From: a virus
Length of the DNA: 21,055 nt
Virus record (IMG/VR): IMGVR_UViG_3300022413_000050
Span: 1 to 21,055 of that record
Strand: one strand, 5' to 3'
Shown here: positions 2,313 to 16,685 of the stretch, one piece after another
Position numbering within the stretch: position 1 is the first letter of the stretch
Layout: every line of letters starts with the position of its first letter
The notes under the pieces: generated by a model
Told to the model about the DNA's origin: nothing
The model's input: the letters and a program-made list of their open reading frames with translations, nothing else
Databases searched by the model: none
Made by a program: the position numbers and the translations under genes

Positions 2313-2624
2313 TTACCGCCTACGCACTCTTTTCCGTCTATGCAATGGTTTATTTGGTCGCAACATCGCATGACTTTGTAAAATAGCGGCCATCCCTTTC
2401 GAGACGCGGAAGCCGCCAACCATCTCCGTATCAAACCCCCATGGCGCCGTAACACGAAAGCCTGCTCCAGCGTATCCAATAACGCCTTCAAGCACGCCAG
2501 CAAAATAAGTGTTCCCAACGGAAACTCGCCAACCCAAGGATTTAGTGGCGTCTGGTGCTGGTCCTCGCTTCCATGGACGACCGACCCCTGGGATTGATTG
2601 TCGTTTTGCTTGAGTATCAATCAA
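2313..2624 (-). CDS. Small virion-type protein with degenerate KR module, TTG start (103 aa)
   Basis: I choose the TTG at 2624, which shares bases with the stop of the upstream gene (CC TTGA), over a competing frame at 2306-2620. The product starts MIDTQAKRQSIPGVGRPWKR and continues PAPDATKSLGWRVSVGNTYFAG; this follows the IDxxAKR...G...R...PD...Y spacing of the module in the 3295-3636 gene, so it looks like a divergent member. The middle is Gly-rich and beta-like (GYAGAGFRVTAPWGFDTEMVGGFRV) and the C terminus is strongly basic (RRKRVRRR). The 24-base gap before the next gene contains that gene's ribosome site. No function is known to me; a small virion protein is likely. Confidence 0.72.
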   Translation of the reverse strand: MIDTQAKRQSIPGVGRPWKRGPAPDATKSLGWRVSVGNTYFAGVLEGVIGYAGAGFRVTAPWGFDTEMVGGFRVSKGMAAILQSHAMLRPNKPLHRRKRVRRR

Positions 2625-3298
2625 GGCCCTGTCTCCATTTTTGCTTCAGAATAATCACCGCCCACATCAGTTAATTGTTTCTTGGCGACCACGGTCCCGG
2701 CGTTATTATAGATTGCCATCACATCAGGGCTTCCAGATGTTGAGACATTTAATTGATTACGTAAAGCCATATATAGCAACATCAATCCTGTACGAAGCGT
2801 TGGCGTTGCTGTTGGTTGCGCTTGCGATAATTCACTAATCGCTGTATCAATCGATGTATTAATTTCAGCTAACACCTCTGCCTTCATCCCTGTACTCATG
2901 CCGCCAAGATTGGTCAGGCTTGCTCCAGCGTCCCCTAAATCAATTAATAGCGGAGGGACGACAGCATCCTTGCCTGACGATACTTTTAATTGAATGATTG
3001 CATGATCGACGCCTGACGCAAATGCCGCATCAGGAACATCGCAACGGTACAGCCCTGGCATATTCGTGTCATCAATAAGAATGAACCCTCCATCGGTATG
3101 TGCAGCATCCGCCGATGCCAATGTGACAAGCGTAAAATCTGTTCGTGCCATGCCTGTACGCAAATATGATGCACTCCCACCTGTCTCAATATCCGAAAAG
3201 AGTAGCCCCGTCACAGGTTCCCCTGGAGCGCCACTTCCTGCATCTTGCATAATATAAAAATACACCGATACATTTGTGGAGCCTGCGAGAACATTCAT
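2621..3298 (-). CDS. Phage appendage protein, Ig-like N domain plus shared C domain (225 aa)
   Basis: Starts MNVLAGSTNVSVYFYIMQDA and carries an N-terminal beta domain (VSVYFYI, GSASYLRTGMARTDFTLVTL, AHTDGGFI, PGLYRCDVPDAAF). A short linker follows (AEVLAEINTSIDTAIS), then a C-terminal domain (LYMALRNQLN, VMAIYNNAGTVVAKKQL, EAKMETGP). The layout matches two neighbouring genes, 3636-4418 and 4431-5066, and I recall it as common in environmental phages; baseplate- or fibre-associated roles are typical guesses. ATG at 3298 overlaps the previous stop by four bases (ATGA) and an AAGGTGGG sequence lies just upstream inside the previous gene. It ends in a TTGA overlap with the following gene. No catalytic motif is seen. 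Confidence 0.82.
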   Translation of the reverse strand: MNVLAGSTNVSVYFYIMQDAGSGAPGEPVTGLLFSDIETGGSASYLRTGMARTDFTLVTLASADAAHTDGGFILIDDTNMPGLYRCDVPDAAFASGVDHAIIQLKVSSGKDAVVPPLLIDLGDAGASLTNLGGMSTGMKAEVLAEINTSIDTAISELSQAQPTATPTLRTGLMLLYMALRNQLNVSTSGSPDVMAIYNNAGTVVAKKQLTDVGGDYSEAKMETGP

Positions 3299-3636
3299 TG
3301 CAACCCACCTTGTAAATTACGTTGGAGTAATATAATTAATTGGCCAGGCGTAGATGGTGCAGCCAATTCATTCCCGCTATAAAGGTGCAACATCATTGCG
3401 CGATTGCTTGCGTTCACAACACCATCATTGGGTTCAAAAACCAACGGTGAAGGGATACGTCCAAATGCCAGCATTGAATATAAATGCGTTGGCGGAGTCG
3501 CAAACGCAAGATAAAGCGACAAAAGAAACCGACGATCATCATCATCAACCGCCCCATCAGGCTCAAAGACCACCCTTGGGGATGATTGCCCGAAGTTCAT
3601 AAATGCATAACGCTTCGCTGCACTATCAATCGCCAT
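3295..3636 (-). CDS. Small protein made of two copies of a KR...FEPDG...DR module (113 aa)
   Basis: The protein is essentially a tandem duplication. Copy 1 (residues 3-43) reads IDSAAKRYAFMNFG, VVFEPDGAVDDDDRRFLL, SLYLAF. Copy 2 (51-89) reads HLYSMLAFGRIPSPLVFEP, DGVVNASNRAMML, HLYSGN. The stretch FGRIPSPLVFEP of copy 2 (58-69) occurs unchanged in the module at residues 305-316 of the partial repetitive protein at the left edge, while the codons differ at synonymous positions. A short Gln/Leu tail (LIILLQRNLQGGLQ) ends it. The start overlaps the upstream stop by one base (TAATG) and the end overlaps the next start by four. I recall similar short modules in many phage structural regions but no established function; a small surface or assembly domain is plausible. 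Confidence 0.82.
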   Translation of the reverse strand: MAIDSAAKRYAFMNFGQSSPRVVFEPDGAVDDDDRRFLLSLYLAFATPPTHLYSMLAFGRIPSPLVFEPNDGVVNASNRAMMLHLYSGNELAAPSTPGQLIILLQRNLQGGLQ

Positions 3637-4418
3637 TATGGGCCATCCGTCATTTCTCCACGTGTTGCGGTTGCCGTATCATCCGACACGGCGGCATCAT
3701 GATCGACCGTTGAAGCATCATCATTAAATAATGAATATGTTGTCGCCGTCTGTGTCGCTTTATTCCTCCAGGCTTTATAAAGGAATCCAATCTTGTCTTT
3801 TAAAGAAACCGTTGCCCCTGGGGCACCTTTTGATGGCTCCGCATACGTCGTCACTGTTAACGCATTATCGACTTCCGCATTGACACTCGTCTTCATCGTC
3901 GCGGTAAGATCGCCACTGGTTGGCGCATTCGTGAGATTTGTCACCGTCGTTATAGTACCGGCCGTAATATTTGCTGTACTTGCTAACGTCGCATTAGGGA
4001 ACGTTACTGTCCCAGACGCGCTCGTTGCCTGTCCACCTACCTGTACCGCATCACACTCAATATGTCCGGTTCCTGCTGCCGCAAATAACGCATCATACGC
4101 ACTCGCTTCAAGGACCATAAAATCCTGCCAAATAGGAATATTCACCGTATCCCCATTGAACATGATTCGTAAGACTCCCAACGTATTTGTATCTGTCGTA
4201 CTCAACTCAACATTGTAATACCCAACTTCATCATGTGTCGGTGCCGTTGCAGAATTTCTATCTGCCATATTACCGCCATTTTTAGATACTCGAATCCCAG
4301 TCGTCGCATTATCCATTGCAGTCGCAAGCCCTGTTTCTGGCGTTACACCATCTGTTTTATCAAGTCCTGGGCCAAACTTAATTGTTACTACGGTTGATTG
4401 CTTAAGCCACATTGCCAT
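3636..4418 (-). CDS. Phage appendage/structural protein, Ig-like N domain plus shared C domain (260 aa)
   Basis: Begins MAMWLKQSTVVTIKFGPGLD and continues TDGVTPETGLATAM, RVSKNGGNMADRN, THDEVGYYNVELSTTDTNTLG, IWQDFMVLEASAYDALF. This N-terminal pattern (WLKQSTxVTxKxGP, SKNGG, HDExGYY, TTDTNTLG, FMVLxAxxYDAL) is one I recall strongly from many environmental phage structural clusters. The middle (about 120-195) is Thr/Ala-rich and repetitive (TLASTANITAGTITTVTNLT), typical of a fibrous linker. The C terminus (GFLYKAWRNKATQTATTYSLF, RGEMTDGP) matches the corresponding part of 2621-3298. An AGAAGGAG ribosome site stands just upstream. It is probably a tail fibre, baseplate or neck-appendage component; precise location on the virion cannot be read from sequence. 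Confidence 0.85.
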   Translation of the reverse strand: MAMWLKQSTVVTIKFGPGLDKTDGVTPETGLATAMDNATTGIRVSKNGGNMADRNSATAPTHDEVGYYNVELSTTDTNTLGVLRIMFNGDTVNIPIWQDFMVLEASAYDALFAAAGTGHIECDAVQVGGQATSASGTVTFPNATLASTANITAGTITTVTNLTNAPTSGDLTATMKTSVNAEVDNALTVTTYAEPSKGAPGATVSLKDKIGFLYKAWRNKATQTATTYSLFNDDASTVDHDAAVSDDTATATRGEMTDGP

Positions 4419-4430
4419 ATCTTTCTCCTT

Positions 4431-5066
4431 CTAAGGGATAACTGTAAATTGCTTGCGCTCACCAATAACCGAAGCATCAGTGGGCAACGCGGTTAACAAA
4501 GCCTGCCGCAATGCTGTTCCTGATTCGTCGTATAATGTCTGTTTCCCAGCGACTGACACTCCATCAATTCGCTGGACAAGAGAAAGTAATGAAATATATT
4601 GACATTGCTCAGGGATCGTCTGCGTCCCGCGTGTCGTTAAGTCCACCAATTGTTCAGCCCAAAATACTTCGCGTGGATCAATAACAGGAAACGACTTATG
4701 GAATTGGTATTCTGAGGTGCCAGTAATATCTAAATGGATAAGAATCTCTGTTGGTAAAAAATCGCTATCACCGGCTTTCCCTCTCGCTAAAATGCTGTCA
4801 GGAATACCCAAAACGCCGACACCTTGCCCATCATCCCAGAAGCCTAAATCTTGATGTGGGCTTGCATTCGCATCTGTATACGCCAATAAATCGCCAGCAT
4901 TAATTGTCGTATCATTTGATGGGTCGCCAATCCGGCGTATAGAACCTGAAATATTCGCTCTCGTAATTGTTGGAAGTCCTTGCGTTGGCGTTGTCGCATC
5001 ACGGAATAAAATATAAACATTTAAATTTGTCGATTCTCCAATGATAGCGCCACCATAAAATCCCAT
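4431..5066 (-). CDS. Phage appendage/structural protein, third member of the Ig-like series (211 aa)
   Basis: Starts MGFYGGAIIGESTNLNVYIL; I choose the ATG at 5066 rather than the in-frame GTG at 5075 because a GGGGGTG sequence lies about six bases before the ATG. Residues 10-130 are beta-rich (NVYILFRDATT, SGSIRRIGDP, TEILIHLDITGTSEYQFHKSFPVI). The C-terminal part contains LLSLVQRIDG, KQTLYDESGTALRQALL, GERKQFTVIP, which aligns in character with the NDDGT-type end of its downstream neighbours. Three such genes in a row suggest duplication and divergence of one appendage building block. The 39-base space to the upstream kelch gene carries only the ribosome site; I see no terminator there. Confidence 0.8.
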   Translation of the reverse strand: MGFYGGAIIGESTNLNVYILFRDATTPTQGLPTITRANISGSIRRIGDPSNDTTINAGDLLAYTDANASPHQDLGFWDDGQGVGVLGIPDSILARGKAGDSDFLPTEILIHLDITGTSEYQFHKSFPVIDPREVFWAEQLVDLTTRGTQTIPEQCQYISLLSLVQRIDGVSVAGKQTLYDESGTALRQALLTALPTDASVIGERKQFTVIP

Positions 5067-5105
5067 TTTATACACCCCCGACCTACAACATTAATAAGAA
5101 TATCT

Positions 5106-7688
5106 TCAAAAAGGTCTCAACGGATCTAATGGATTAGGATTTAACACTTCAGGTGGGACCCCGCTTTCTTCTGCCGGAATACTTTGACCAAATCGATACC
5201 ACCACACATTGGGATTCGCCCCATCTGGCTCTGGAAACGCCCCGCCAAATACAATAAGAATATTTTGGGCGGGGTCAAACGCCATAATATTCCCACGGAC
5301 AATGCTTTCTGGATCTGGGCTTGTCCCGGTCGTTGCCGTCCCATCTTTGACGATAGCTTTATCAACCTCCCATGAATCCAACACCGGGTCATAGACGTGC
5401 AATTTGGATTCAGCAAATGTTCGCGTCATACTTTCAACAAAAATATATTTATCATTTCCGACATCATAATGAAAAAACGCATCCGCGTTATAACTTGCGC
5501 CATTCGTATCGTTTTCCTGGGGCAATGGCGGTGTCGCTAACGCATTCCAACAGCCAGTGCATACCAATGGGGTTCCTCCAGCCTCAGCATCAATCGTGTC
5601 GATATCAATATATTTCATCTGGGCAACATCAGGCGTCCCAGATTGAAGGTCTAACCAAACCACACGTCGACGCGAATCATCCATAATTGGAGAAATAGGC
5701 TGAGGGCGAAATGGCGGACTCAATGAGTTATCTTTGAATTTCTCCCATGTATCTGTTGATGCATCATACCGACATGCCGAATTATCACCGCACCCCATCC
5801 AAAAGGTATCAGTCGCCAAATCATACCCAGCGTGTAATACTGATCCCCACGTCTGAACATTTGGCGGAGTCGCCCATGGGCCTGTTCTCGTGAGATTTTG
5901 GTCTTCATAAAGTCCGGTTAACGGATTAAACGCTCCCAACCCTGCATTCCAAATAAATGGAGAAATAGATGAATAGTTTGAACCCCAATCAATCAAAGGC
6001 GTAACTACCGTTGGCACTACAGGGTTTTGCCATAAATAGGGATCTGGCTGTATAGAACAAATCCCAGAATTATTTTCTAAAGGTTCAATGCATGTTCCGT
6101 CAGGGCAATCATTTACCTCCCACCCAGGATGATTTGGATGAGTCCACTGGAACCCAGGGAAAAACCAAAACTTCCCATCAGCATTTCTAAATGCCACAGG
6201 ATATTGATCCATCCCTGGCAATCGTACTTGGTTTGTTTCTGTCGGACATACATCGTGGATTAACGCCCATGTATCTGTTTTGACATCATAGGTATACGCA
6301 GCACTAACGCCACTCCCACCAGCAATCGTAAACGTTGCAGTTAAATGATCACCGCCAAATAAATAAAACTTTCCATCATTAGGCCAACGAAGCATGCGAA
6401 GATGTTTCATCGTGTACGATGGCTGTGTGGTCCCAGTTCCAACGGGGGCAATCGATGGTTGATTAATTGGAAGATCATTCCGATGCCAGGTATTGTCTGG
6501 AATATAAACTTGCGTCGTATCTGGGTTTGTGTATAGATACACGTTCTGGTCTTTATCAGGAGATGTCACAAATTTATCAAGATGAGGAATATACGCAAAT
6601 CGACCAAATACGCCTGCTAGTTGTGAATGAAAGGCTGGCCCTCCAGTATCATCGATCTTCTTGCAATGTAACGTCAAAAGATCAAACGTCCAGACTTCAT
6701 CGGTGGTATCTGTATCGATAGTCGGAACCGCGCCTTTATATATCACCACCTTATCTGTCGTTATATCGTAGGCCACACCTGGAGCTTTGGCGCGAAACGC
6801 CTCAGTGCATGATGATTCTGTTGCAATAGTTTGAGGCTGTGTTGTTGGATTATTTACATCAACAATGACGGCCTTAGGGTTACTATTGGTATCGTTAGTT
6901 TCTCCACCACCAACAAGTAACATTTGGCCAGGATATCGTTTTGCGGTTGTCGGTAAAAATGTTGCAGAGTATCGCCAAGAGTTTGCCGTCCCGAATAATG
7001 TCGCTTTCGTAGTCGATGGCCATGCTGAAACAGACACCCACGCATTCGTGGATAAATCAAACTTATGAAGTCTCAACGAACCATTGTCATTCGTAAAGGA
7101 CCACACCGCATTATTCGTCGTATCGTATGTGAGCGTAGCGCCCCAGGGACCAGGATCAAAGGCATGTGTCTCAAAGAGCTTGCTCCATGTATTCGTGGTT
7201 AAGTTAAATATCCAAGTGTCTTGCCCAAACCCGCCAGACGCACAAGCAATTGATCCGCCATATAAAAGCATTTGGGGGTCAGAACGCCCATTCTCTGGGG
7301 GGATATATACAAGATTTTGGAAGGTGTGACGTGAAGTAGGATGCCCGATAGGGTCTTCAATAATCGTGCAACTATTAGTCGCCCAACCGACAGGCCCGCT
7401 TGTCCATGGCTTGAGATTCGCCCATGTCAGTGTATCAACGTTAAAGGCATAAACTGAATTATCATTTCCGTCCGCATGCCCACCACCCAAAACGATGAGA
7501 TTATGATTTACATCGTCGTACACTCCACCCGAAAACGCCAACCAATTCGCGGCAAAAGCGGACGGACTGATTCCTGATGGTTTTATCCCCGCGTCATTAG
7601 GGACCGTTGTCGGTTGCTCCTCCCATCCAGCGAATACCAATGAGCCTGAAAGGAGAGCATAAATAAGGAATGCAAAAAAGTAAGTCAT
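5106..7688 (-). CDS. Large kelch-repeat beta-propeller protein with signal-like N terminus (860 aa)
   Basis: Residues 1-21 (MTYFFAFLIYALLSGSLVFA then G) form a hydrophobic segment like a signal peptide, though without the usual Lys/Arg at the start. The rest contains recurrent kelch-type strands: LIVLGGGHADGN with VYAFNVDTLTW (about 63-90), MLLYGGSIACASGG with DTWIFNLTTNTW (140-168), LHKFDLSTNAW (208-217), MLLVGGGETND, DEVWTFDLLTLHC, KFYLFGGDHLT with YTYDVKTDTW, CRYDASTDTW, LHVYDPVLDSW and ILIVFGGAFPEPDG near the end. That is enough for one large or two propellers. Several Cys pairs (CPDGTC, CTGC) hint at disulphides. Kelch propellers bind proteins or glycans, and some (galactose oxidase type) are enzymes; I see no diagnostic active site. 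Its ATG overlaps the upstream 50-aa gene by four bases, so it belongs to the virion operon. Confidence 0.87.
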   Translation of the reverse strand: MTYFFAFLIYALLSGSLVFAGWEEQPTTVPNDAGIKPSGISPSAFAANWLAFSGGVYDDVNHNLIVLGGGHADGNDNSVYAFNVDTLTWANLKPWTSGPVGWATNSCTIIEDPIGHPTSRHTFQNLVYIPPENGRSDPQMLLYGGSIACASGGFGQDTWIFNLTTNTWSKLFETHAFDPGPWGATLTYDTTNNAVWSFTNDNGSLRLHKFDLSTNAWVSVSAWPSTTKATLFGTANSWRYSATFLPTTAKRYPGQMLLVGGGETNDTNSNPKAVIVDVNNPTTQPQTIATESSCTEAFRAKAPGVAYDITTDKVVIYKGAVPTIDTDTTDEVWTFDLLTLHCKKIDDTGGPAFHSQLAGVFGRFAYIPHLDKFVTSPDKDQNVYLYTNPDTTQVYIPDNTWHRNDLPINQPSIAPVGTGTTQPSYTMKHLRMLRWPNDGKFYLFGGDHLTATFTIAGGSGVSAAYTYDVKTDTWALIHDVCPTETNQVRLPGMDQYPVAFRNADGKFWFFPGFQWTHPNHPGWEVNDCPDGTCIEPLENNSGICSIQPDPYLWQNPVVPTVVTPLIDWGSNYSSISPFIWNAGLGAFNPLTGLYEDQNLTRTGPWATPPNVQTWGSVLHAGYDLATDTFWMGCGDNSACRYDASTDTWEKFKDNSLSPPFRPQPISPIMDDSRRRVVWLDLQSGTPDVAQMKYIDIDTIDAEAGGTPLVCTGCWNALATPPLPQENDTNGASYNADAFFHYDVGNDKYIFVESMTRTFAESKLHVYDPVLDSWEVDKAIVKDGTATTGTSPDPESIVRGNIMAFDPAQNILIVFGGAFPEPDGANPNVWWYRFGQSIPAEESGVPPEVLNPNPLDPLRPF

Positions 7689-7837
7689 TCCCGACGCATT
7701 CTTAAATTCGAGTTTATTATTGCAATAATAGCCCCACCAGCCGAAGATGATTCAAACACTTCTCCGTCAATAAAATACTCATCCCCATCAGCAGGATCTT
7801 CTAGCAACTCGCCATTTAAATAAAATGTATCAGCCAT
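7685..7837 (-). CDS. Small phage protein, 50 aa
   Basis: ATG at 7837, TGA ending at 7685: MADTFYLNGELLEDPADGDE followed by FIDGEVFESSSAGGAIIAII and a short basic end (RMRRE). The start overlaps the end of the beta-helix gene by eight bases and the stop overlaps the kelch start (ATGA), so it fills the only space between these two large genes. The paired NGEL/DGEV beta-hairpin pattern recurs in tiny phage proteins next to structural genes, as far as I recall. No strong ribosome site precedes it; translational coupling is likely. Function unknown. Confidence 0.7.
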   Translation of the reverse strand: MADTFYLNGELLEDPADGDEYFIDGEVFESSSAGGAIIAIINSNLRMRRE

Positions 7838-9170
7838 CAGTCACAACCAATTTTGGTGAAATATAAAAATGTCTAGTCCCCGCAATACTCGCTAATCCAA
7901 TAAGGACTCTTCCGCGCATAATCCCTTTCGTACCAACAGTCAAACCTTGGATTTCTAGTTTTTGATGATAAGTATAACTTGTGCTCCAGGTGGAGCCTGT
8001 GTCATCGGTTTGAGATGAGGGTGTTCCAGTAATTGTTGGCTCACGATCTGAAGCCAATGTATAAAACTGACTTGTCGCGTCATCTTGGTATTGGACCTCA
8101 AGCCAGACTTGGAGTTCATTAAAGTCAGAATTCGTATTTTGGATATAGACCGCAACATCATAAGTGCCCGCTGTAGCAATATTGGTATTAATCCACGGCG
8201 TAATCAATGGACTAGATGCAGAGCAAGCCGCCGTCGTAACGATTCCTGTCGTTGCGGTTTCCCCGCCCCAAGAAAATGCAATGCCTTGCACCTCTGGGCC
8301 ACCTGTACGTGTCACGGTTGAATCACGTAAATGTCCTTCCTTGGAGGCGTACAGAAATTGGGTAGGATTATCCCCGGCGCTACAATTTACCATCGTCACG
8401 CTTCCTGTCTTAATAACCGTATTATAGTCATACAGCACATGCGTTGCCGCCATTTTACAATTCTCAAAAAGAATCTGGCTTCTTACGCCAGTCGAATATC
8501 CAAATAATTCTGGCGTTGTCGCGTTAGTTAAACTGGTACAATCCAATCCGCTAATACGCGCCGTTCCTCCGGTCGTAAAATCAGCAAAAATATTTCCTGT
8601 TCGATTTGATCCATTAGCGATAGACCCACCCTCAATGACGATGTTCCCATATCCTAAAGAAAACGCTTTATTGGCTGACGCTCCAGAATCATTCGTAAAA
8701 TCGAACGCACAATCCTTAAAGTTGTATTTGCCTGAATCAAGGAAGGTGATTGAAGAACCAGACCCAACTTTTAACGTACAATCTTCAAAATATTGGCTGG
8801 TATCAGTATTCCCATCAAAATAAATAATCCCTTTACTACTCATCTGGACGCCATAAAAAGCCCAATTTTCTGAAAACAAAATGTAATTCGATCCCGCGTC
8901 TTGATACGTATTGATTTGATTCGCGGTCGCTTTAGCATAATTTGTAGTTGCATCGGTCACAGAAATTACAACAACAGGCGTAGAAACCCCGCCAACGGCT
9001 GAAATAAGTTCATTGGCACTATAATCATGAGCATCCTCATGATTTGACGCAATGTACACGGTGTCAGCCGCCGTTAATGGATGGGCAATATTGCCAAGCC
9101 ATGTTGCCGCTTTAGCCCATGTATCAAAGGGCGATGTATCTGTTCCGCTTCCAACGTAATAATCGGCCAT
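7830..9170 (-). CDS. Right-handed beta-helix virion protein (446 aa)
   Basis: N terminus MADYYVGSGTDTSPFDTWAKA resembles the opening of many phage parallel beta-helix (pectate-lyase-like) proteins. Residues about 110-290 contain rungs of short strands with stacked polar/Cys positions: QYFEDCTLKVGSG, YNFKDCAFDF, IVIEGGSIANGS, ARISGLDCTSL, ILFENCKMAA, VTMVNCSAGD. The C-terminal third (about 300-446) is a separate beta domain (TYDVAVYIQN, FNELQVWLEVQYQDD, HFYISPKLVVTDG), probably a sandwich. In phages this fold makes tailspikes, capsid-surface or fibre proteins, some with polysaccharide-degrading activity; no catalytic residues can be assigned here. AAGGGATAAG precedes the ATG as ribosome site, and an intergenic gap of 17 bases separates it from the upstream gene. 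Confidence 0.85.
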   Translation of the reverse strand: MADYYVGSGTDTSPFDTWAKAATWLGNIAHPLTAADTVYIASNHEDAHDYSANELISAVGGVSTPVVVISVTDATTNYAKATANQINTYQDAGSNYILFSENWAFYGVQMSSKGIIYFDGNTDTSQYFEDCTLKVGSGSSITFLDSGKYNFKDCAFDFTNDSGASANKAFSLGYGNIVIEGGSIANGSNRTGNIFADFTTGGTARISGLDCTSLTNATTPELFGYSTGVRSQILFENCKMAATHVLYDYNTVIKTGSVTMVNCSAGDNPTQFLYASKEGHLRDSTVTRTGGPEVQGIAFSWGGETATTGIVTTAACSASSPLITPWINTNIATAGTYDVAVYIQNTNSDFNELQVWLEVQYQDDATSQFYTLASDREPTITGTPSSQTDDTGSTWSTSYTYHQKLEIQGLTVGTKGIMRGRVLIGLASIAGTRHFYISPKLVVTDG

Positions 9171-9187
9171 AACTTATCCCTTATTTG

Positions 9188-9721
9188 TTAATTCGATTTT
9201 ACCGTTGGCCCTTTTAAGTCGTCTGGCCAATTTTCTTTCGCTTGCATCGACATCGCATGGTGTCCGGCAATTTGCGCCGTCGTGTCATACCCGAATGGAC
9301 GCTCAGGGCGGAACCGTTCGTAATTAGTCAAATCGGGATCGTCTGAATCTGACTCCAAGCGTTTAATAATTTCTCGCCATTCTAAAATCTTCGCTTTATT
9401 CGCCTTCTCCCACTTCATATGTTTGTAGACAGTTCCATCTCCACCACGATTGCGACGCATCTCTTCTTTTGATGGAATTCCTTGCGTAAATTCTTCACGC
9501 AATTGACGCTCACGCTTCACCGCCGCATTTTTTTCGGTCGATGTTTCGTAAGGCTGTGGCGATTGCGTATCCAACGTATCTTTCATTTGCTTTACTTGCC
9601 GCCGTAATGCACTCTTGTCTGTGATGTACGACGACATATTCGGGTTCGTTAATAACTCCTCCGATGCCACAAGATCCTGTTCAATCGCCGTTCGCTGTGA
9701 TGGCTTCAATGTCCGCGTCAT
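9188..9721 (-). CDS. Charged, helical phage protein of unknown function (177 aa)
   Basis: The product MTRTLKPSQRTAIEQDLVAS... is highly charged and predicted by eye to be mostly helical: LRRQVKQMKDTLD, AAVKRERQLREEF, KANKAKILEWREIIKRLES. It ends with YERFRPERPFGYDTTAQIAG and a short tail. No hydrophobic segment, Cys motif or enzyme signature is visible. An AAAGGGATATAG sequence at the end of the preceding small gene provides the ribosome site, with three bases between the genes. It sits three genes after the major capsid gene and before the beta-helix gene, a position where head-completion or minor virion proteins are often found, but I cannot support a specific role. Confidence 0.8.
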   Translation of the reverse strand: MTRTLKPSQRTAIEQDLVASEELLTNPNMSSYITDKSALRRQVKQMKDTLDTQSPQPYETSTEKNAAVKRERQLREEFTQGIPSKEEMRRNRGGDGTVYKHMKWEKANKAKILEWREIIKRLESDSDDPDLTNYERFRPERPFGYDTTAQIAGHHAMSMQAKENWPDDLKGPTVKSN

Positions 9722-9724
9722 GTG

Positions 9725-9865
9725 CTATATCCCTTTCTTTGGCTCCTCCGTCACAGGCGTAAATGAAGGTGCAGGATCTTTTACGCCTTTAGTTCCAGGA
9801 GGAGGGGTTGGCAATGTTGCCTTTACAGGCACTTCTTTTAATTCGGAGTAATAGCGATTCGCCAT
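9725..9865 (-). CDS. Proline-rich small phage protein, 46 aa
   Basis: ATG at 9865 with a strong GAAGGAG ribosome site seven bases upstream; TAG ends at 9725. The product MANRYYSELKEVPVKATLPT then continues PPPGTKGVKDPAPSFTPVTE and ends EPKKGI. It is Pro/Lys-rich and likely extended or disordered. The next gene starts three bases after the stop. The strong ribosome site and perfect tiling argue for a real gene despite its size. Function unknown; it lies between two virion-type genes. Confidence 0.72.
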   Translation of the reverse strand: MANRYYSELKEVPVKATLPTPPPGTKGVKDPAPSFTPVTEEPKKGI

Positions 9866-9879
9866 AGTTCACTCCTTCA

Positions 9880-10221
9880 TTACGAGGTAGAAATTACAAG
9901 TACGCTCACGGTGGTAGAGGCGAGGTCAATGGCGCCACCTGTGTTGTTCAATAACTGATATGTCACTGTGTCAGCGGCGGTGACATGCGCATCAGCGGCG
10001 AGATCCGCGATATCAAGACTTAGACTTACCAGACAATAATCGCCTAACGCCGCGCCCGTAATCGTCAACTCTCCAACTTCTTCATTTCCATCAGCGATTG
10101 ATCCGGCGTCATACGTTTCTGATCCTTCGTATACGCCCGTAATAAATGTCGTACTCGACGCCGATGTCCCTATCTTAAACCCACCTTCTGCCACTACTGT
10201 TCCAAAATGCGATTCAGCCAT
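9880..10221 (-). CDS. Small beta-rich virion protein, candidate head decoration or stabilisation protein (113 aa)
   Basis: The sequence MAESHFGTVVAEGGFKIGTS leads into a beta-rich body: GELTITGAALGDYCLVSLSL, then VTAADTVTYQLLNNTGGAIDL and TTVSVLVIS. I recall this pattern (AESHF, GAxLGD, VTAADTVxxxLxNxTGGxxDL) from small proteins encoded next to capsid genes in many phages, where a role on the virion surface is usual. It begins 60 bases after the capsid stop, with a GAAGGAG ribosome site upstream and an overlap with the 31-aa candidate gene. Decoration function is inferred from size, fold impression and position only. Confidence 0.8.
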   Translation of the reverse strand: MAESHFGTVVAEGGFKIGTSASSTTFITGVYEGSETYDAGSIADGNEEVGELTITGAALGDYCLVSLSLDIADLAADAHVTAADTVTYQLLNNTGGAIDLASTTVSVLVISTS

Positions 10222-10289
10222 GGTATCGCTCCTTCACGCAGACGCCCTTCCAGGCGCCTGCGTCGTTTAGGTTTGTGTCGTTTAGACAT
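10194..10289 (-). CDS. Possible 31-aa Arg/Lys-rich microprotein
   Basis: ATG at 10289 overlaps the last codons of the capsid gene; the stop at 10194 lies inside the next gene. The product MSKRHKPKRRRRLEGRLREG followed by AIPWLNRILEQ is extremely basic at its N terminus. It fills the 60-base space between two well-supported genes and follows a GGGA sequence four bases before the ATG, but the ribosome site is weak and the length is marginal, so it may be only the translated leader of the downstream gene. If real, a nucleic-acid-binding head protein is conceivable. Confidence 0.38.
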   Translation of the reverse strand: MSKRHKPKRRRRLEGRLREGAIPWLNRILEQ

Positions 10290-11196
10290 CGTTCCCGAGA
10301 ATCCACCGCCAGTCAATCCACGCATACGAAAAGCGCGTATAGACACGCCACTTCCGCACGAACGAATCGAAGTCAGAAGTATTGGCAAACTCAACAGGGA
10401 TTCGATTGAACCACATCAAATTATCTTGCCGCGCTTCACCGTCCATCATGAACCAGTCGGTGGCGCTCGTCATGTAGTTCCATTCGTAAATGGTGTACTG
10501 TCCGTAATGAACATTCGCGTTATTGTCGGCTGTGTTCACTTTCCCCAGTGAACTGACGATCTCATATGAGGTTTCGTACAGATTCGGTGGAATCCAAATC
10601 TCAGTCGGCTCCACATTAATCCGCTCGCCACGATCACCACTAAAGTTCCGCATCTGAATACGGTTTGCGGCAACCGATGTGGCGCTCAAAGCGGCGGTCG
10701 ATAAGTTGTCAAATCCCGTCGCTGTTGATGCCCCACTGGTTGTAGTATGCGAATTACTACACAACGGCACACCCTCAGAATGACTATAGAATAAATTATC
10801 TACCGAGAACGCCATCGTTAAGGCTCTGGCGCCATGCGTTTCCAATGTCCGCTGCGCGGAACGTGCTAATTTCGCTGGCTGACGATCCATCTGATTAAAC
10901 AGGTCGTCATCGATCAATGTACGTCCAATCTGCATCCCCAAGGCATACTCTTTATGTGTCGCCGTAACATCATAACCTTGAGAAATGGAATCGTAACTCA
11001 CATTCCCAGCAAATGGTTGCAAGTCGCCTAATTCGCCAAGTTGACTAAATCGTTCGTCGGCGCCCTTCCTTGCGGTTTGCACGTTAAAAAGCAAACTCCT
11101 CATGTCTGGCAAACGTTTATAGGTTGAATCGAAAATCTCTGAAAACCGTCGATCAAGAAGATCAGTATAATCCGATGATATTTGTGGTACTGCCAT
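10282..11196 (-). CDS. Major capsid protein, HK97-fold type (304 aa)
   Basis: The protein MAVPQISSDYTDLLDRRFSE lies where tailed phages place the capsid gene: after portal and scaffold-like genes. Visible features are an N-terminal helical arm (residues 1-40), QPFAGNVSYDSISQGYDVTA and HKEYALGMQIGRTLIDDDLF in the region of the E-loop and first P-domain strands, LETHGARALTMAFSV, SGDRGERINVEPTEIWIPPN (A-domain), and an ending typical of this family with aromatic residues, YTRFSYAWIDWRWILGNDV. The character resembles Mu gpT-like capsid proteins. No long N-terminal delta domain is present, consistent with the separate scaffold-like gene upstream. AAAGGAG ten bases before the ATG is among the strongest ribosome sites in the window, fitting high expression. 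Assignment rests on position and motifs. Confidence 0.88.
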   Translation of the reverse strand: MAVPQISSDYTDLLDRRFSEIFDSTYKRLPDMRSLLFNVQTARKGADERFSQLGELGDLQPFAGNVSYDSISQGYDVTATHKEYALGMQIGRTLIDDDLFNQMDRQPAKLARSAQRTLETHGARALTMAFSVDNLFYSHSEGVPLCSNSHTTTSGASTATGFDNLSTAALSATSVAANRIQMRNFSGDRGERINVEPTEIWIPPNLYETSYEIVSSLGKVNTADNNANVHYGQYTIYEWNYMTSATDWFMMDGEARQDNLMWFNRIPVEFANTSDFDSFVRKWRVYTRFSYAWIDWRWILGNDV

Positions 11197-11210
11197 AATT
11201 CACTACTCCT

Positions 11211-11951
11211 TTATGCTAAGGCTGATCCAGCAAAAGCATGATCGGCACAAATTAAATTAACATAACTATTCAGCAAACCATTATTACCGAGGTCATTCAA
11301 CACCAATTCCACAGCCCTCCAGGTCGGTGTCGTATTTAACGCCGTCGCTACAAGTGCATCGTACTCATCCAGCGTTGTCGTAAGCGTGGCGTATTGAATA
11401 GCCCCTTCCGTGATTGGACAAACAAAGAACAAATCATCAGCCGCAATCGCAAACGGGAAGGCTTGAGTAAGATTAACATCGGTTGCATCGGCTGGCTCCA
11501 TGCGCCGATAAACACCTGCGTTCGCACCGGAATAGCAAAAGATCACAGTATCATCAACAGCAGACATATCAACGGTCGATCCACCGCTGGTTGCTGATGG
11601 CGTTACCAAAATGCCGGTTGCGGAAGCCGCCGTATTAAAATACGGAATCAACGCAGACCCAGATGTGGCAGCACCCGACAACCGGCATTGCCACACCGCA
11701 TCAGCATTCGTCACCACCGACACGGTTTGCGAAGGATCGCTATTGTCGGATTGTTGTGCAGTGTTATAGGTGGCGGTGTCAATGGCCATACCCACGGCAT
11801 CAGCCGATGTCGTCGTGGTCCCCAACAACACGCCTTCATTATTCGCTGTGGCTCCAATTACTGGAACACCTGGCGTCGTAACAGAAATCCCAACTCGCAT
11901 CTTTTGTACGCGAGTTTTTGCCCCACTATGAATATACGCTAATTGTGACAT
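11211..11951 (-). CDS. Candidate capsid decoration or minor head protein (246 aa)
   Basis: I take the ATG at 11951 (MSQLAYIHSGAKTRVQKMRV) because AGAAGGAG stands just upstream; a longer frame to 12188 would run deep into the previous gene. The product is rich in Ala/Thr/Ser and beta-like: VGISVTTPGVPVIGATANNE, VSVVTNADAVWQCRLSGAAT, STVDMSAVDDTVIFCYSG, AIAADDLFFVCPITEGAIQY. It ends with a helix-like piece (WRAVELVLNDLGNNGLL). It is encoded immediately before the capsid gene, a common place for decoration proteins, with 14 bases between them. No enzyme motif is seen. The role is inferred from position and composition. Confidence 0.82.
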   Translation of the reverse strand: MSQLAYIHSGAKTRVQKMRVGISVTTPGVPVIGATANNEGVLLGTTTTSADAVGMAIDTATYNTAQQSDNSDPSQTVSVVTNADAVWQCRLSGAATSGSALIPYFNTAASATGILVTPSATSGGSTVDMSAVDDTVIFCYSGANAGVYRRMEPADATDVNLTQAFPFAIAADDLFFVCPITEGAIQYATLTTTLDEYDALVATALNTTPTWRAVELVLNDLGNNGLLNSYVNLICADHAFAGSALA

Positions 11952-11952
11952 C

Positions 11953-12342
11953 TTATCTCCTTCTGTACTGGGTTGCTGCAACGTGTCGTTGGGTCGACCG
12001 TCGCTGCTTCTGCTCATCAGGTGTCGCCCAGGCATTAGGACGCACTTCTTCATGCAAAAACAATCGACCATCGTTCCCAGTAATTTGCACACGACAAACA
12101 TCACATGGGCCGAGTACGGGTTGGTGTTCATAACGGTAAACGGAATAATAGCCGCACCGTCGGTAATCAAACTTCCCTTGGCAGTCACCGCACAAGATGA
12201 GGGTCTTTTGTAAGCTCACCATATCTGAGACAAGTGACCCGGCTAAGGTGCCGCGTTTCCTGCCGCCAAATTCCAGCGCCTTGAGTCGATCATGCGAGGA
12301 CCATTGTTGGGGCGTCAGGATAGTCGGAGAGGTACTTTTCAT
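11953..12342 (-). CDS. Zinc-ribbon phage protein (129 aa)
   Basis: The ATG at 12342 overlaps the stop of the scaffold-like gene (ATGA), and a CGGAG sequence lies just upstream; a longer frame starting at 12429 is ignored. The product MKSTSPTILTPQQWSSHDRL carries CGDC at residues 51-54 and CDVC at 80-83, with an extra Cys at 63, arranged as a CxxC...CxxC zinc ribbon. The C terminus is basic (KQRRSTQRH, QYRRR). I recall similar short proteins with LCGxC and GxCDxC in other phages' head regions, without known function. DNA or RNA contact or structural zinc in assembly is possible. It is one of three zinc-ribbon-type elements in this part of the window. Confidence 0.82.
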   Translation of the reverse strand: MKSTSPTILTPQQWSSHDRLKALEFGGRKRGTLAGSLVSDMVSLQKTLILCGDCQGKFDYRRCGYYSVYRYEHQPVLGPCDVCRVQITGNDGRLFLHEEVRPNAWATPDEQKQRRSTQRHVAATQYRRR

Positions 12343-13130
12343 CGTAACAACTCCGAATGTTTCTCTCGAAGCTTCGGGTTCACCGTTTGTGTGGCGGCTC
12401 CCTTCACTTCTTTGCGTACTGCATTCCAATCTTGATAGACCCCCTTCTCGATATACGTTTTATATAATCGCTTCTCGCTAACTGATAACACATCGAGTGG
12501 GTCTTTCTTCCTTTGATTAGAAGACGGGGCACTTCGACCGCCGACTTCTTGCGTGGTATCACGTAATTGTGCGGTGCGCGTCTGTGTCGCTCTTGCATCT
12601 TTAATACGTTGCATCGGACCAAAGGTTTTCTCTAGCGCCAAGAGCTTCGTGGTATTATTGTCTGACAACCCAAGGTTTAATAGTCGTTGGTATTCTGGCG
12701 TTGCACGTTGATTTGCTTGTGTCCCTGTTTGATCCCACCCAGGGTAAACCTGGCGATACTCATTCAATTGATCGACAATGCGTTGCTCTTGCGTCTGCGT
12801 TTGCATCGCACGCACCGCTTCTTGCTTGGCTTGCTCACGGTTCTGTAGTTGCATCTGATCGACCATTTGGTCTTCCGTAATGACGCCTTCATTCACCGCT
12901 TGCCGCAATTGCTGTGTCGTGAAGAACTTCACTTCCGACGTCGGCTTTGCCACGACTGGCGCTGCTTGCATTACTGGCGCCTCAACAAATCGTGGCACCT
13001 CCTCTGCTGGCGGCAACACTTCTTGTGGCGCTTCCTTAACCACTTCCTCAACTTGGGCTTCCTCAATGATAGGCTCAATCTCAGGGTCAGGAAACGTTTC
13101 TTCTTGGCGCTCAACGATGTCGTCAGCCAT
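12339..13130 (-). CDS. Scaffolding-like head assembly protein (263 aa)
   Basis: Starts MADDIVERQEETFPDPEIEP, giving a very acidic N-terminal third (EEAQVEEVVKEAP, PPAEEVPRF). The middle is helical and Gln-rich: FFTTQQLRQAVNEGVITEDQ, NREQAKQEAVRAMQTQTQEQ, then VDQLNEYRQVYPGWDQ. The C terminus is basic (SEKRLYKTYIEKGVYQDWNA, KGAATQTVNPKLREKH). An acidic, helical, low-complexity protein with a basic C-terminal end encoded between portal and capsid genes is the usual profile of a phage scaffolding protein, whose basic tail contacts the capsid protein. No protease domain is visible, so capsid maturation would not rely on this gene. Its start lies 5 bases after the 39-aa gene; TAAG-type weak ribosome site. 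Confidence 0.75.
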   Translation of the reverse strand: MADDIVERQEETFPDPEIEPIIEEAQVEEVVKEAPQEVLPPAEEVPRFVEAPVMQAAPVVAKPTSEVKFFTTQQLRQAVNEGVITEDQMVDQMQLQNREQAKQEAVRAMQTQTQEQRIVDQLNEYRQVYPGWDQTGTQANQRATPEYQRLLNLGLSDNNTTKLLALEKTFGPMQRIKDARATQTRTAQLRDTTQEVGGRSAPSSNQRKKDPLDVLSVSEKRLYKTYIEKGVYQDWNAVRKEVKGAATQTVNPKLREKHSELLR

Positions 13131-13135
13131 AATGC

Positions 13136-13255
13136 TTACCCCTTTTTCTTTTGTAACATCAGGTGGATATTCGGGTTCTTCATCCCGATATGAATTTTGC
13201 CAGACTCACTTTTTTTGTTCCCCGCAACATCTGTTCTTCCTTTCTTTCGTGCCAT
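13136..13255 (-). CDS. Lys-rich microprotein, 39 aa
   Basis: A perfect AAAGGAGG stands five bases upstream of the ATG at 13255. The product MARKKGRTDVAGNKKSESGK then IHIGMKNPNIHLMLQKKKG is short and basic. It begins 16 bases after the previous stop and ends five bases before the scaffold-like gene, so it fills its slot exactly. The strong ribosome site makes translation likely. Function unknown; basic charge suggests binding to DNA or to the acidic scaffold, which is speculation. Confidence 0.68.
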   Translation of the reverse strand: MARKKGRTDVAGNKKSESGKIHIGMKNPNIHLMLQKKKG

Positions 13256-13271
13256 CACTGCCTCCTTTGTG

Positions 13272-13415
13272 TTACGCGCCAATCACTTGTGGCTGCTTTT
13301 TCTTCTTCTTCTTCTCTTTAATCGATCCAGTCGTCGGGTCCTGCTTCATGCCCTTCTTGGAGATCCCTTCAACATGCGATGTCGATTTACTTGGTTCGCC
13401 CTCGAAATTTCCCAT
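13272..13415 (-). CDS. Lys-rich small protein, 47 aa
   Basis: ATG at 13415 with an AGGGGG sequence six bases upstream; TAA ends at 13272. The product MGNFEGEPSKSTSHVEGISK continues KGMKQDPTTGS and then a run of eight basic or acidic residues dominated by Lys (IKEKKKKKKQPQ) before VIGA. It lies nine bases after the upstream 165-aa gene. Lys-rich small proteins of this kind sit between portal and capsid genes in many phages, but I cannot name a function. The poly-Lys codons (AAG/AAA) form a slippery-looking purine run of about 25 bases. Confidence 0.68.
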   Translation of the reverse strand: MGNFEGEPSKSTSHVEGISKKGMKQDPTTGSIKEKKKKKKQPQVIGA

Positions 13416-13424
13416 CCACACCCC

Positions 13425-13922
13425 CTAAATAAACTTATCGTCAATCGTCTTACTCTTTACTTTTTTGGGCTTAAATTTCTTCAAAGCGATAATCGGTCGC
13501 ATAATAGGTTTCGGTTGCGGTGCCGGCATCTTTTTCACTAACTCAAACATCGCGCTCGTAATCTTTTCAAAATTCGTAGGCTGCTCTTTCCGCACCTTCG
13601 TCTCTGTTGTCGTCAGGTGTTCTTTCTCAAGGGCTTGACGCTTCACGGGCGGCCCCTCCTGTTTAACGGAAGGACGCTGTTCTCTCACAGGCTTGAACGT
13701 CACGCTTGCTGGGGATGTGACAATCGGCGGAAGAGTGGAAGGCTTAGGTTTTTTCTTAGGAGAGGGTGAAGCTGGAGGCGGGGCCGCTTCTTGCTGTATG
13801 GGAGGACGGCTTGAAACCGTTCCCGCTAACTTACTGAAATTGCTGGCGATATCTCGAAAGATCCGGCGTGCTTCCGCAGACCCTAGTGGAACATCCTTAG
13901 GTAAGTTGGTCTTCTTTGCCAT
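13425..13922 (-). CDS. Pro/Lys-rich, probably disordered phage protein (165 aa)
   Basis: The product MAKKTNLPKDVPLGSAEARR has a short helical N-terminal part (IFRDIASNFSKLAGTV) and then a long low-complexity basic stretch (PPPASPSPKKKPKPSTLPPI, PVREQRPSVKQEGPPVKRQA). A second short helix (NFEKITSAMFELVKKM) precedes a basic C terminus (LKKFKPKKVKSKTIDDKF). A GGAGG sequence lies five bases before the ATG, inside the end of the previous gene (26-base overlap). No domain is recognisable. Position between portal and scaffold suggests a minor head or assembly factor; the strong positive charge could serve DNA or capsid-interior binding. Confidence 0.75.
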   Translation of the reverse strand: MAKKTNLPKDVPLGSAEARRIFRDIASNFSKLAGTVSSRPPIQQEAAPPPASPSPKKKPKPSTLPPIVTSPASVTFKPVREQRPSVKQEGPPVKRQALEKEHLTTTETKVRKEQPTNFEKITSAMFELVKKMPAPQPKPIMRPIIALKKFKPKKVKSKTIDDKFI

Positions 13923-14232
13923 GCTCGCCTCCGTGTTCGTGATACGCGGCGATTGTTCGCTCCAGACGTTGTATCAGCAATAATTCTGCGGAAATAATAT
14001 CCAGTAGGGACTTTTGTTTAGCTAAATATTCATACGAATAATCACCTGAGTATTTCATGCTATCCAGATGTGCGTCAAGTTTGGCTTGAATCGCCCCCAT
14101 TTCCTGGTGGATAGTGCCACGCAAATCCACCCACGCATCCGACAATGCTATCACTCGCACTTGTGACTCTGGCTGTTCCCTCTGCTCTCGAAGCGCCCAA
14201 GCCGCGCGAACCTCTGCTAAGTCAATTGACAT
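13897..14232 (-). CDS. Helical small phage protein (111 aa)
   Basis: The ATG at 14232 has one of the best ribosome sites in the window, AAAGGAGG six bases upstream. The product MSIDLAEVRAAWALREQREQ appears almost entirely helical (LRGTIHQEMGAIQAKLDAHL, EYLAKQKSLLDIISAELLLI, RLERTIAAYHEHGGEHG), with heptad-like spacing compatible with a coiled coil. It overlaps the next gene by 26 bases. No family is recognised. A small coiled-coil protein immediately after the portal could be a head-assembly accessory, but there is no direct evidence. Confidence 0.78.
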   Translation of the reverse strand: MSIDLAEVRAAWALREQREQPESQVRVIALSDAWVDLRGTIHQEMGAIQAKLDAHLDSMKYSGDYSYEYLAKQKSLLDIISAELLLIQRLERTIAAYHEHGGEHGKEDQLT

Positions 14233-14243
14233 ACACCCTCCTT

Positions 14244-14306
14244 TTAGTCGCGAATCATCACGAGATCAAAATCAATGGAAATTCGCCAGTCATATCCTGT
14301 CGCCAT
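14244..14306 (-). CDS. Possible 20-aa microprotein after the portal gene
   Basis: ATG at 14306 follows GTAGGAG with six bases of spacing, and TAA ends at 14244. The peptide is MATGYDWRISIDFDLVMIRD. It fills the 83-base gap between the portal stop and the next ribosome site. The ribosome site and tiling favour translation; its tiny size and lack of any recognisable motif keep the call tentative. It could instead be a leader that couples translation to the downstream gene. Confidence 0.4.
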   Translation of the reverse strand: MATGYDWRISIDFDLVMIRD

Positions 14307-14315
14307 GAGAAACTC

Positions 14316-16685
14316 CTACGTTAAGGTTTCATCTAATAATTCATTTTGTTGGACTTGCGGATTCCCGCTCACGCCTGAATTCGGCGCTTCGCCTTGCGCT
14401 TGCGGACCCGGCGTTCCACCCCCGCCACCTAATGATTGTTGGAATTGTTGCACCTGTTGTAATAACTGTTGGCGTTGCGCGGCCTCTTGCGCTTGACTTT
14501 GGACGTTCGTGATATAGACTTGCACCAACGCCTGTACAAACTTATCAATCTCTTCCGCTTCCGGTTGCTGCATGAATGCTAAGATCTGTTGGATGTGTTG
14601 CTGTGGGCCTTCAGTAGGAACTGTGCGCTGTGGCATTCGCCCATTCATCAATACGTTAATGGCTTCTTGCGCCGTAATCGCCAGCCGTCCTTCTGGGTCC
14701 TGTGGCGGCGTGAGATAGCGTGACGGTTCGTGCTGCACCAGCTTGATAAAGTCCGTCAAGAGATTATGAATCTGTTGCGGTCCCACTACGCCAATCTGCA
14801 AGGTCATCGGATTAATCAACATCTGCATCAACGTTTGTAAGACTTGTTGGGCGGTGGCTTTATCTGAATTAAAAGACCCCGCCGTAAATTTGAATTGCAT
14901 TCGTCCGCTAATCATGGCGATATCATCCACCGATTCGTACACATTCCGACCTTGCTGGTCTGGCTCCATCAATCGAAACTGTTTTTGTGGGGGTAAGAAT
15001 CGTTGGTTCAGTTCATGCATGATCCGGTAAATATCTTTGAACCCAGAAAAGAATCGGCGTAAAATCCGTTCAGGGCGAGCATCACCTTGCGATAAAATAC
15101 TTTGCATGCCCGACGCGGTTCGTAACGCCGACGCCTTGCCTTTCGGCACACGCCCAAACTGAATATCGCCTTGCATCGATGCCTTCTCTTGGATCTGCGA
15201 CAATAGCGACAACATATTCAACCCATACGAATCACTCTGCGACGTGAACGCCATAATCTTCAGATCACGCTCTGGGTCATTCATGGGCACACCTTCACCT
15301 GGCGCAATGCGTAAGGTTTCAGGATTCACGCCGCTGGTTGGACGATACGCAAACCACGGGACATTCTTAATCGTCGCCGCATCCACCATTTGATCGTAGG
15401 TAATCTTTTGTAAGTCGTGAAGCGACTCCAAGAGTTCCAATAAACTAATGCCATACGCTCGGCCTTCCACGGGAAGAAACGACGCAGACGCCAAGGGACG
15501 TAACGGTGGGTCGGAAGGGTAGGCTTCTGTAAGATAGCGCACACGTAAAATCGTTTGCGTCTCACGAATCATCCACACCACTAGCTGCTCCTCTAGGCCA
15601 TCCCCATTCACATCCCAGCCTAAGAATGCCTGGATACGTGTGAGAGGTTGAGCGCCAGAAACTTCATCGGGTCGGCTTCGCCCTTGTCCGCCGTGGATGC
15701 CTTCAAATTCATCCTTCAAAACTTTCTGCTCGGAGTTCCCTTCGCCTTCCGTGGGATCTTCCCGCGTGGCGCCTTCGACTTTCGCTAAATCTTCATCAGT
15801 CATTAAGTCGTAATAGCCTTGCTTTTGAAGGCGACGAATTTCATCTAAAGTGGGATAATCCAATAACAAGACATGCTCGGCCCCATTGGGGTTCGCGGGA
15901 GATTGTGCTTGCACATTATCCGAGCGCCACGGCACCACCCATTCATCGACACTCTTCGCAATGACCACCGGCCCATCATACGCCCGCACGTCACGTTGTA
16001 GATTTAATTCCAGGCGTCCGCCTTCCTCTTGGATATACGCTTCTACTGTGACTTTACGTTCCACTTCATTATCGAGAATGGTGCCGCGCCATCGAAACCC
16101 TTCCGTATCAATTTGCGTGAGTTCCACGATCTGAAAGATTTGCTCCATCGCACGACGCACCCCATCCGCAATCGTCACTGTGTCAGGGATGGGATTAAAA
16201 ATATGCAGATCATTGACCGCTTCGTCGTACCGTACCCAGGGCACATGCGCTAAGAAGACCCCATCAACCACGAATTGCTGAACTAACGCGGCCACCGTTT
16301 CTTCGCCAGGTTGCTCCACGAAAAACTGATAGTCCAACAGGTTATCGATATGCTTTTGCTTCTCGACATCCACCTTCTTCATCGCCATCGACTCCACCAC
16401 GGGATGCCGTGCCAGCACCGCGTTATGGATGGTGTCTTGCGTGCGTAAACATTCCGTCATCAAGATCGGCAAATGGGCGTTGCTGGCGTTCGTCCACGGA
16501 AACGTTTTCGGTTCACGCCATCCTCGATACTTCGCATATCGCTGTACCCGCATCTTATTCCATTCGTCGCGATCTTCAAGATCGCGGGTCAATGAATCGC
16601 AGATATGTCCCGCGAGCGTCTTCTCGTCAATATTAAGTGAGGCACGTTTTCTCGACCGCATAGGTTGAACTTTTTTACGTGGCAT
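14316..16685 (-). CDS. Portal protein (789 aa)
   Basis: A 789-residue protein next to the large terminase, in the position and size range of large phage portals, which form the dodecameric DNA entry ring and terminase docking site. After a basic N terminus (MPRKKVQPMRSRKRASLNID) come the PFTN-like motif of many portals (WREPKTFPWTNASNAHLPIL, about residues 55-75), VEQPGEETVAALVQQFVVDG, FLAHVPWVRYDE, IFNPIPDTVTIAD, then LEELLVVWMI-type strands and the central YGISLLELLESLHDLQKITY with DQMVDAATIKNVPWFAYRPT. The last 80 residues are Gln/Gly-rich (AQRQQLLQQVQQFQQ, GGGGGTPGPQAQG), probably a flexible tail or barrel extension. GGAAGG precedes the ATG, which overlaps the upstream zinc-ribbon gene by 11 bases. 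Assignment is by context and pattern. Confidence 0.88.
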   Translation of the reverse strand: MPRKKVQPMRSRKRASLNIDEKTLAGHICDSLTRDLEDRDEWNKMRVQRYAKYRGWREPKTFPWTNASNAHLPILMTECLRTQDTIHNAVLARHPVVESMAMKKVDVEKQKHIDNLLDYQFFVEQPGEETVAALVQQFVVDGVFLAHVPWVRYDEAVNDLHIFNPIPDTVTIADGVRRAMEQIFQIVELTQIDTEGFRWRGTILDNEVERKVTVEAYIQEEGGRLELNLQRDVRAYDGPVVIAKSVDEWVVPWRSDNVQAQSPANPNGAEHVLLLDYPTLDEIRRLQKQGYYDLMTDEDLAKVEGATREDPTEGEGNSEQKVLKDEFEGIHGGQGRSRPDEVSGAQPLTRIQAFLGWDVNGDGLEEQLVVWMIRETQTILRVRYLTEAYPSDPPLRPLASASFLPVEGRAYGISLLELLESLHDLQKITYDQMVDAATIKNVPWFAYRPTSGVNPETLRIAPGEGVPMNDPERDLKIMAFTSQSDSYGLNMLSLLSQIQEKASMQGDIQFGRVPKGKASALRTASGMQSILSQGDARPERILRRFFSGFKDIYRIMHELNQRFLPPQKQFRLMEPDQQGRNVYESVDDIAMISGRMQFKFTAGSFNSDKATAQQVLQTLMQMLINPMTLQIGVVGPQQIHNLLTDFIKLVQHEPSRYLTPPQDPEGRLAITAQEAINVLMNGRMPQRTVPTEGPQQHIQQILAFMQQPEAEEIDKFVQALVQVYITNVQSQAQEAAQRQQLLQQVQQFQQSLGGGGGTPGPQAQGEAPNSGVSGNPQVQQNELLDETLT

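Follow-up and report, generated by a model that had tools for sequence, protein, structure and literature searches.

A gene that lies in a run of virion genes is normally read as encoding a part of the virion, because tailed-phage parts are assumed to be folded and put together in the cytoplasm. The locus described here raises the question of whether a protein encoded in such a run is instead destined for export. We analyzed a stretch of 21,055 nucleotides of DNA from an uncultured tailed phage (IMG/VR record IMGVR_UViG_3300022413_000050, positions 1 to 21,055; hereafter the window), in which a kelch gene with a signal-like start lies just downstream of the capsid gene. On balance, we judge that the product of this gene is probably a kelch-propeller binding protein that is exported through Sec, produced late along with the virion proteins and active at the envelope or in the surroundings of the infected cell, or in the lysate, and not a virion part assembled in the cytoplasm.

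The kelch gene and its position in the virion gene run

A preliminary description of this DNA had noted an 860-amino-acid kelch open reading frame. We found it at 5106..7688 with an ATG start, on the minus strand (read from 7688 to 5106), as are all the features within it given below. The gene matched two Pfam entries above their curated cut-offs (PF24681, 4.5e-19; PF24981, 3.7e-15). At the level of sequence, the kelch assignment of the N-terminal half is secure. This half contains a propeller at approximately residues 21-395 (6504..7628), which secreted bacterial proteins and the family's other viral members also have and for which AlphaFold gave a fair model (pLDDT mostly 70-90). The C-terminal half (5109..6503) is probably a second kelch propeller. 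Taken alone, it had a weak Pfam kelch score (2.5e-6), and a weak kelch match was also found in the C-terminal half of the homologue from a sister phage, L004; the two C-terminal halves matched each other with phmmer (2.8e-17). Among the relatives found, only L004 had a homologue of this half. Because the AlphaFold models of the C-terminal half were unusable, the assignment of the second propeller is tentative.

Two trivial explanations for an unusual N terminus in this position were ruled out. The first was a misplaced start codon. The ATG lies in a 4-bp ATGA overlap with the stop of the preceding 50-amino-acid open reading frame (7685..7837, minus strand, read from 7837 to 7685), and no ATG, GTG or TTG is found upstream of it within the open frame of the window. 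In L004, the upstream neighbor of the kelch gene is a gene of 174 amino acids, and the junction is again ATGA. The second was host contamination or a chimeric contig, which we rejected because a separately assembled contig (L002), 99.95% identical to the window over 15.5 kb, carries an identical kelch gene, and because the L004 homologue occupies the corresponding place after the capsid gene.

The gene is indeed embedded in a run of virion genes, as the preliminary description had stated. On the same strand, the kelch gene is preceded by those for the terminase, an SU10-type portal and the major capsid protein (10282..11196, minus strand; Pfam Phage_capsid_4, 8.3e-16; phrog_371) and followed by one for a GP4 gp80-type fibre protein, and the run is one-directional. 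The capsid gene forms the upstream anchor of an accessory slot. Between it and the kelch gene lies a gene for a 446-amino-acid protein (7830..9170, minus strand) that has no signal peptide and no family match and is absent from L004; the protein has 1.35% Cys and looks beta-helical from its sequence. At one end of the window (positions 1-1556), a long repeat protein with EASSDGIGSGAGVGVGFNES-type repeats runs off the end.

Comparison with L004 indicates that the kelch gene sits in a fast-changing or exchanged accessory region and has nevertheless retained its fold, its export signal and its coupled start. We place it there because the head genes of the two phages are 84-88% identical in DNA sequence, this similarity ends upstream of the kelch region, and identity between the two kelch proteins is only about 28-32% (phmmer with the N-terminal domain, 2.5e-33). 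The GC content at third codon positions (GC3) of the kelch gene (0.388) is like that of its accessory neighbors (0.355-0.392) and unlike that of the head genes. Thus, the whole region differs and not the kelch gene alone, and there is no sign of a recent capture of this single gene. A search for a promoter of the kelch gene's own was uninformative, because sigma-70-like sites in the region were fewer than in shuffled sequences.

The signal-like N terminus and its conservation

The hydrophobic, signal-like start pointed out in the preliminary description is a real and conserved feature. The protein begins with MTYFFAFLIYALLSGSLVFA, followed by GWEEQ. Its hydropathy, measured as the best 14-residue stretch in the first 24 residues, was 2.13, higher than in any other called gene of the window. 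This value was not reached elsewhere in the kelch protein, and just 289 of 100,000 sequences shuffled from the protein's own composition (0.3%) attained it. AlphaFold placed a helix at residues 2-13. From these features and the comparison with L004, we predict a Sec signal peptide at residues 1-20 (7629..7688), with Val at position -3 and Ala at position -1. The likely cleavage site, between V-F-A and G, is one residue ahead of the first invariant Trp. No other called gene in the window has a clear signal-peptide-like start, which supports export through Sec. An N-terminal export signal is expected of kelch proteins of the secreted GGGHxDY family (see below), and for the window protein it is predicted by a hydropathy rule together with comparison to homologues.

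The n-region of this segment contains no Lys or Arg, which weakens the case for Sec export and which the preliminary description had taken to leave the matter open. The absence itself stands, but it is not decisive, because the L004 homologue, starting in the same kind of ATGA overlap, has a textbook signal peptide (MIWRICLLVILFSVAPAWG) with Arg in its n-region. The two signals are similar in length, and their ends lie at about equal distances from the first conserved Trp. That a syntenic homologue so highly diverged keeps both the signal and the overlap argues for export, as does the presence in L004 of a second signal-bearing gene (MKWFLRCLVIIGLMASSAWAAG; L004 positions 13328-13747), which lies two genes after the kelch gene and encodes a Fn3-like protein of 139 amino acids.

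Cys pairs suggestive of disulphides had also been noted. There are 12 Cys in the protein, including the close pairs CPDGTC, CGDNSAC and CTGC. As only three of the 12 (C149, C481 and C533) are invariant against L004, we regard disulphides, judged from the sequence, as plausible. Among the non-kelch genes of seven contigs, those with hydrophobic starts, a group that includes a few false positives, had a median of 2.08% Cys versus 0.57% for the rest (p = 0.0004), which is consistent with export. The Cys content of the propeller domain alone did not differ between family members with and without a signal (p = 0.23), which weakens the case. We therefore dropped Cys enrichment as proof of export, as it was significant for whole genes but not for the kelch domain.

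A propeller family shared with secreted planctomycete proteins

The kelch propeller of the N-terminal half belongs to the GGGHxDYxGN...SRHTY family, members of which are made by Planctomycetota (the phylum of L010) as secreted proteins or lipoproteins. Homology extends along the length of the propeller (phmmer and alignment), and the invariant GGGH, D, N and RH motifs are present. A match to the family at 1e-10 was found in 6 of 199 Planctomycetota genomes, and the L004 kelch protein matched planctomycete proteins with E-values down to 5.2e-36. Several of the planctomycete proteins have signal peptides or lipoprotein-type signals, and this relationship to a secreted bacterial family supports the export of the phage protein. 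There are also differences. The cellular members found have a single propeller, in some cases after Ig-like repeats, whereas the phage protein has a second, probable one. In addition, the phage protein reads DGNDNS in place of the DYxGNE motif, whose Tyr, Gly and Glu it has lost.

About 20 virus contigs encode kelch proteins of this family (from a search alignment that included planctomycete homologues). Eight of the viral members have a signal peptide (those of the window, L004, L022, L025, L026, L029, L032 and L037), with N-terminal hydropathies of 1.8-2.5 compared to 1.06 or less in the remaining viral members. Some have typical MKK- or MRR-type signal peptides, and in L037 a strong ribosome-binding site precedes the start of the signal-bearing gene. 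The recurrence of signal-bearing kelch proteins in six contigs besides the window and L004 speaks for export; the approximately ten viral members without a signal peptide speak against it, and these may be virion proteins. In two of them (L039, positions 5457-8963; L027, positions 6729-10004), the kelch part follows a long N-terminal region of an unfamiliar type. In a phylogenetic tree, the window and L004 proteins were joined (support 92/90), those of L022, L025, L026 and L029, all with signals, were grouped (80/89), and five members without a signal formed one starred clade. Acquisition from a bacterium, which had been raised for this gene, is plausible but was not settled by the tree, in which the deeper order was not resolved. 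A tblastn search of isolated phages and plasmids recovered no relatives of the kelch protein.

The conserved residues of the family point to a binding function. In 17 aligned viral and cellular members, G68-G70, H71, D73 and N77 of the GGGHADGNDN motif (7458..7487) and H121 of the SRHT motif (7323..7334) are invariant. By strand order, the GGGHxDxxxN loop is the BC loop of blade 1, and the R-H motif is in the DA loop before blade 2. The BC and DA loops of kelch propellers are on the same side, which is the usual ligand face, as in Keap1. The loops carrying H71, D73, N77 and H121 are therefore expected to face the same side. The position of these invariant residues in inter-strand loops supports the interpretation of the protein as a binding protein.

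We considered known activities of kelch proteins. Foldseek searches with the N-terminal propeller recovered kelch propellers with E-values down to 2.8e-11, among them the kelch binding domains of KLHDC3, LZTR1, KLHL2 and epithiospecifier protein; GlxA ranked lower (34-36). The phage protein has the kelch propeller fold in common with galactose oxidase and GlxA. A galactose-oxidase-like active site, for which a search had been proposed, was not supported. The copper site of galactose oxidase (AA5) consists of two Tyr, two His and a cross-linked Tyr-Cys. Among the aligned members no Cys is near-invariant and no Tyr-His pair is conserved, the window protein contains no YH dipeptide, and galactose oxidase was absent from the 60 best PDB sequence matches. 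We therefore ruled out a galactose-oxidase enzyme, as the copper-ligand and Tyr-Cys cofactor pattern was not found. The N-acetylneuraminate mutarotase NanM (YjhT) is itself an exported kelch propeller, and was ruled out by scores far under the cut-offs (TIGR03547, 9.3 bits vs 256.35; TIGR03548, 15.5 bits vs 243.2). A role as an anti-phage defence protein was ruled out, as there was no PADLOC match.

Proposed export and alternative explanations

If the protein is exported, the order of events could be as follows. From its accessory slot, which directly follows the capsid gene, the kelch gene would be expressed late, together with the virion proteins. The protein would be directed to the Sec translocon by its first 20 residues, which would then be cleaved off. 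The mature protein would fold in the periplasm or outside the cell, probably with disulphide bonds, and would bind a ligand through one face of its N-terminal propeller, where the conserved His/Asp/Asn/Arg-His patch lies. Export, folding outside the cytoplasm and ligand binding would together place its action at the envelope of the infected cell, in the surroundings or in the lysate.

There is a precedent for an exported protein among late virion genes. Lom of phage lambda, a product of the late operon that is made during lytic growth, is an exported protein (PMC9836094). The window gene resembles it in lying on the same strand as, and within, a virion gene run and in having a signal-like start. 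The two proteins are unrelated in sequence, and they differ in that Lom is a small outer-membrane protein (PF06316), whereas the kelch protein is large, soluble and propeller-shaped. Lom was the sole precedent that we found in the literature on exported proteins in virion-gene slots, and we found nothing closer.

Signal-bearing genes recur in comparable slots of other phages. In L037, the order of portal, capsid and signal-bearing kelch genes is the same as in the window, and in L022 a signal-bearing kelch gene lies between the capsid and neck genes. L069, a relative of the window phage found through its capsid protein, has two long signal-bearing genes (661 and 399 amino acids; positions 8326-11514) between the major capsid and neck genes, neither of them kelch and neither with a solid family match. 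The arrangements in L037 and L069 both support the export interpretation. The signal is not a general property of the neighborhood downstream of the capsid gene, since none of the other capsid-relative loci scanned had a long gene there with a start-proximal signal; the signals flagged in L048, L051 and L063 were at internal alternative starts.

Two contigs have longer series of genes with signal-like starts. In L029 (positions 2358-15528), whose genes follow a myovirus-like order, there are six in succession at the tail-fibre end, encoding proteins of 1061 (collagen, fibre-like), 401, 345 (metallophosphatase-like), 979 (kelch), 528 and 1084 amino acids. In L026 (positions 4463-9501), there are five upstream of the neck and tape-measure genes, one of them for a 711-amino-acid Cys-rich collagen-repeat protein with fibre-like shaft repeats. 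The collagen-repeat proteins of L029 and L026 matched tail-fibre PHROGs (phrog_366, 7e-11 and 1.4e-8), the collagen part of these matches being of low complexity, and the C-terminal domain of the L029 protein matched phrog_10330, annotated as a virion structural protein (6e-7).

These fibre-like neighbors strengthen a possible but unlikely alternative, in which the exported kelch protein undergoes oxidative folding in the periplasm and does not attach to capsids or tails until lysis brings the virions together with the periplasmic contents. The gene is placed where head decoration or fibre genes often lie, and family members without a signal peptide occupy similar gene contexts. To our knowledge, however, no tailed phage assembles by such a route, exported fibre-like proteins could equally be secreted decoys or adhesins, and the collagen matches carry the limitation given above. 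In favor of this alternative, kelch proteins can be virion parts: according to the accessible part of the report on vB_PcaM_CBB, a giant phage (jumbo myovirus), this tailed phage has the kelch proteins CBB_550, 552 and 554, of which CBB_552 was found as a virion component by mass spectrometry (PMC5259590). That part of the report does not describe export of these kelch-type propellers, and they were not recovered as sequence relatives in our search of a phage collection.

It is improbable that the protein is an ordinary, non-exported virion protein whose hydrophobic N terminus is retained as a membrane or capsid-interaction segment. The location among virion genes, the lack of a basic residue in the n-region and the existence of signal-less relatives fit this explanation. 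However, in both diverged homologues a signal-peptidase-like site closes the segment immediately ahead of the propeller, other viral members have signal peptides of the typical types, and the segment is short and interrupted by Ser-Gly-Ser, unlike a typical anchor. A membrane-anchored virion protein, which the preliminary description had offered as an alternative, is thus less likely than export. A captured host gene for a secreted protein, kept as a neutral passenger, would account for the secreted cellular relatives, but is very improbable given that the window and L004 homologues are both intact in spite of their divergence, that signal peptides recur across viral members, and that GC3 gives no indication of recent capture.

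As a single case, an exported accessory protein encoded among virion genes would be of an already known kind, and the recurrence of such genes in these slots is of more interest. In several phages, large proteins with export signals, many of them Cys-rich, are encoded in capsid-to-neck and fibre slots. One speculative generalization, which we consider doubtful, is that certain surface or fibre-like proteins of some tailed phages (kelch propellers and Cys-rich collagen fibres) are made by way of Sec, fold with disulphides in the periplasm and, at lysis, either become part of virions or coat cells and debris; the window kelch protein and the products of the signal-bearing genes of L025, L026, L029 and L069 would then belong to a wider class of exported proteins from fibre loci. 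If export of these proteins is true, they would represent either a neglected class of phage-secreted proteins that act on the envelope of the host, or a second, periplasmic route to the decoration of virions.
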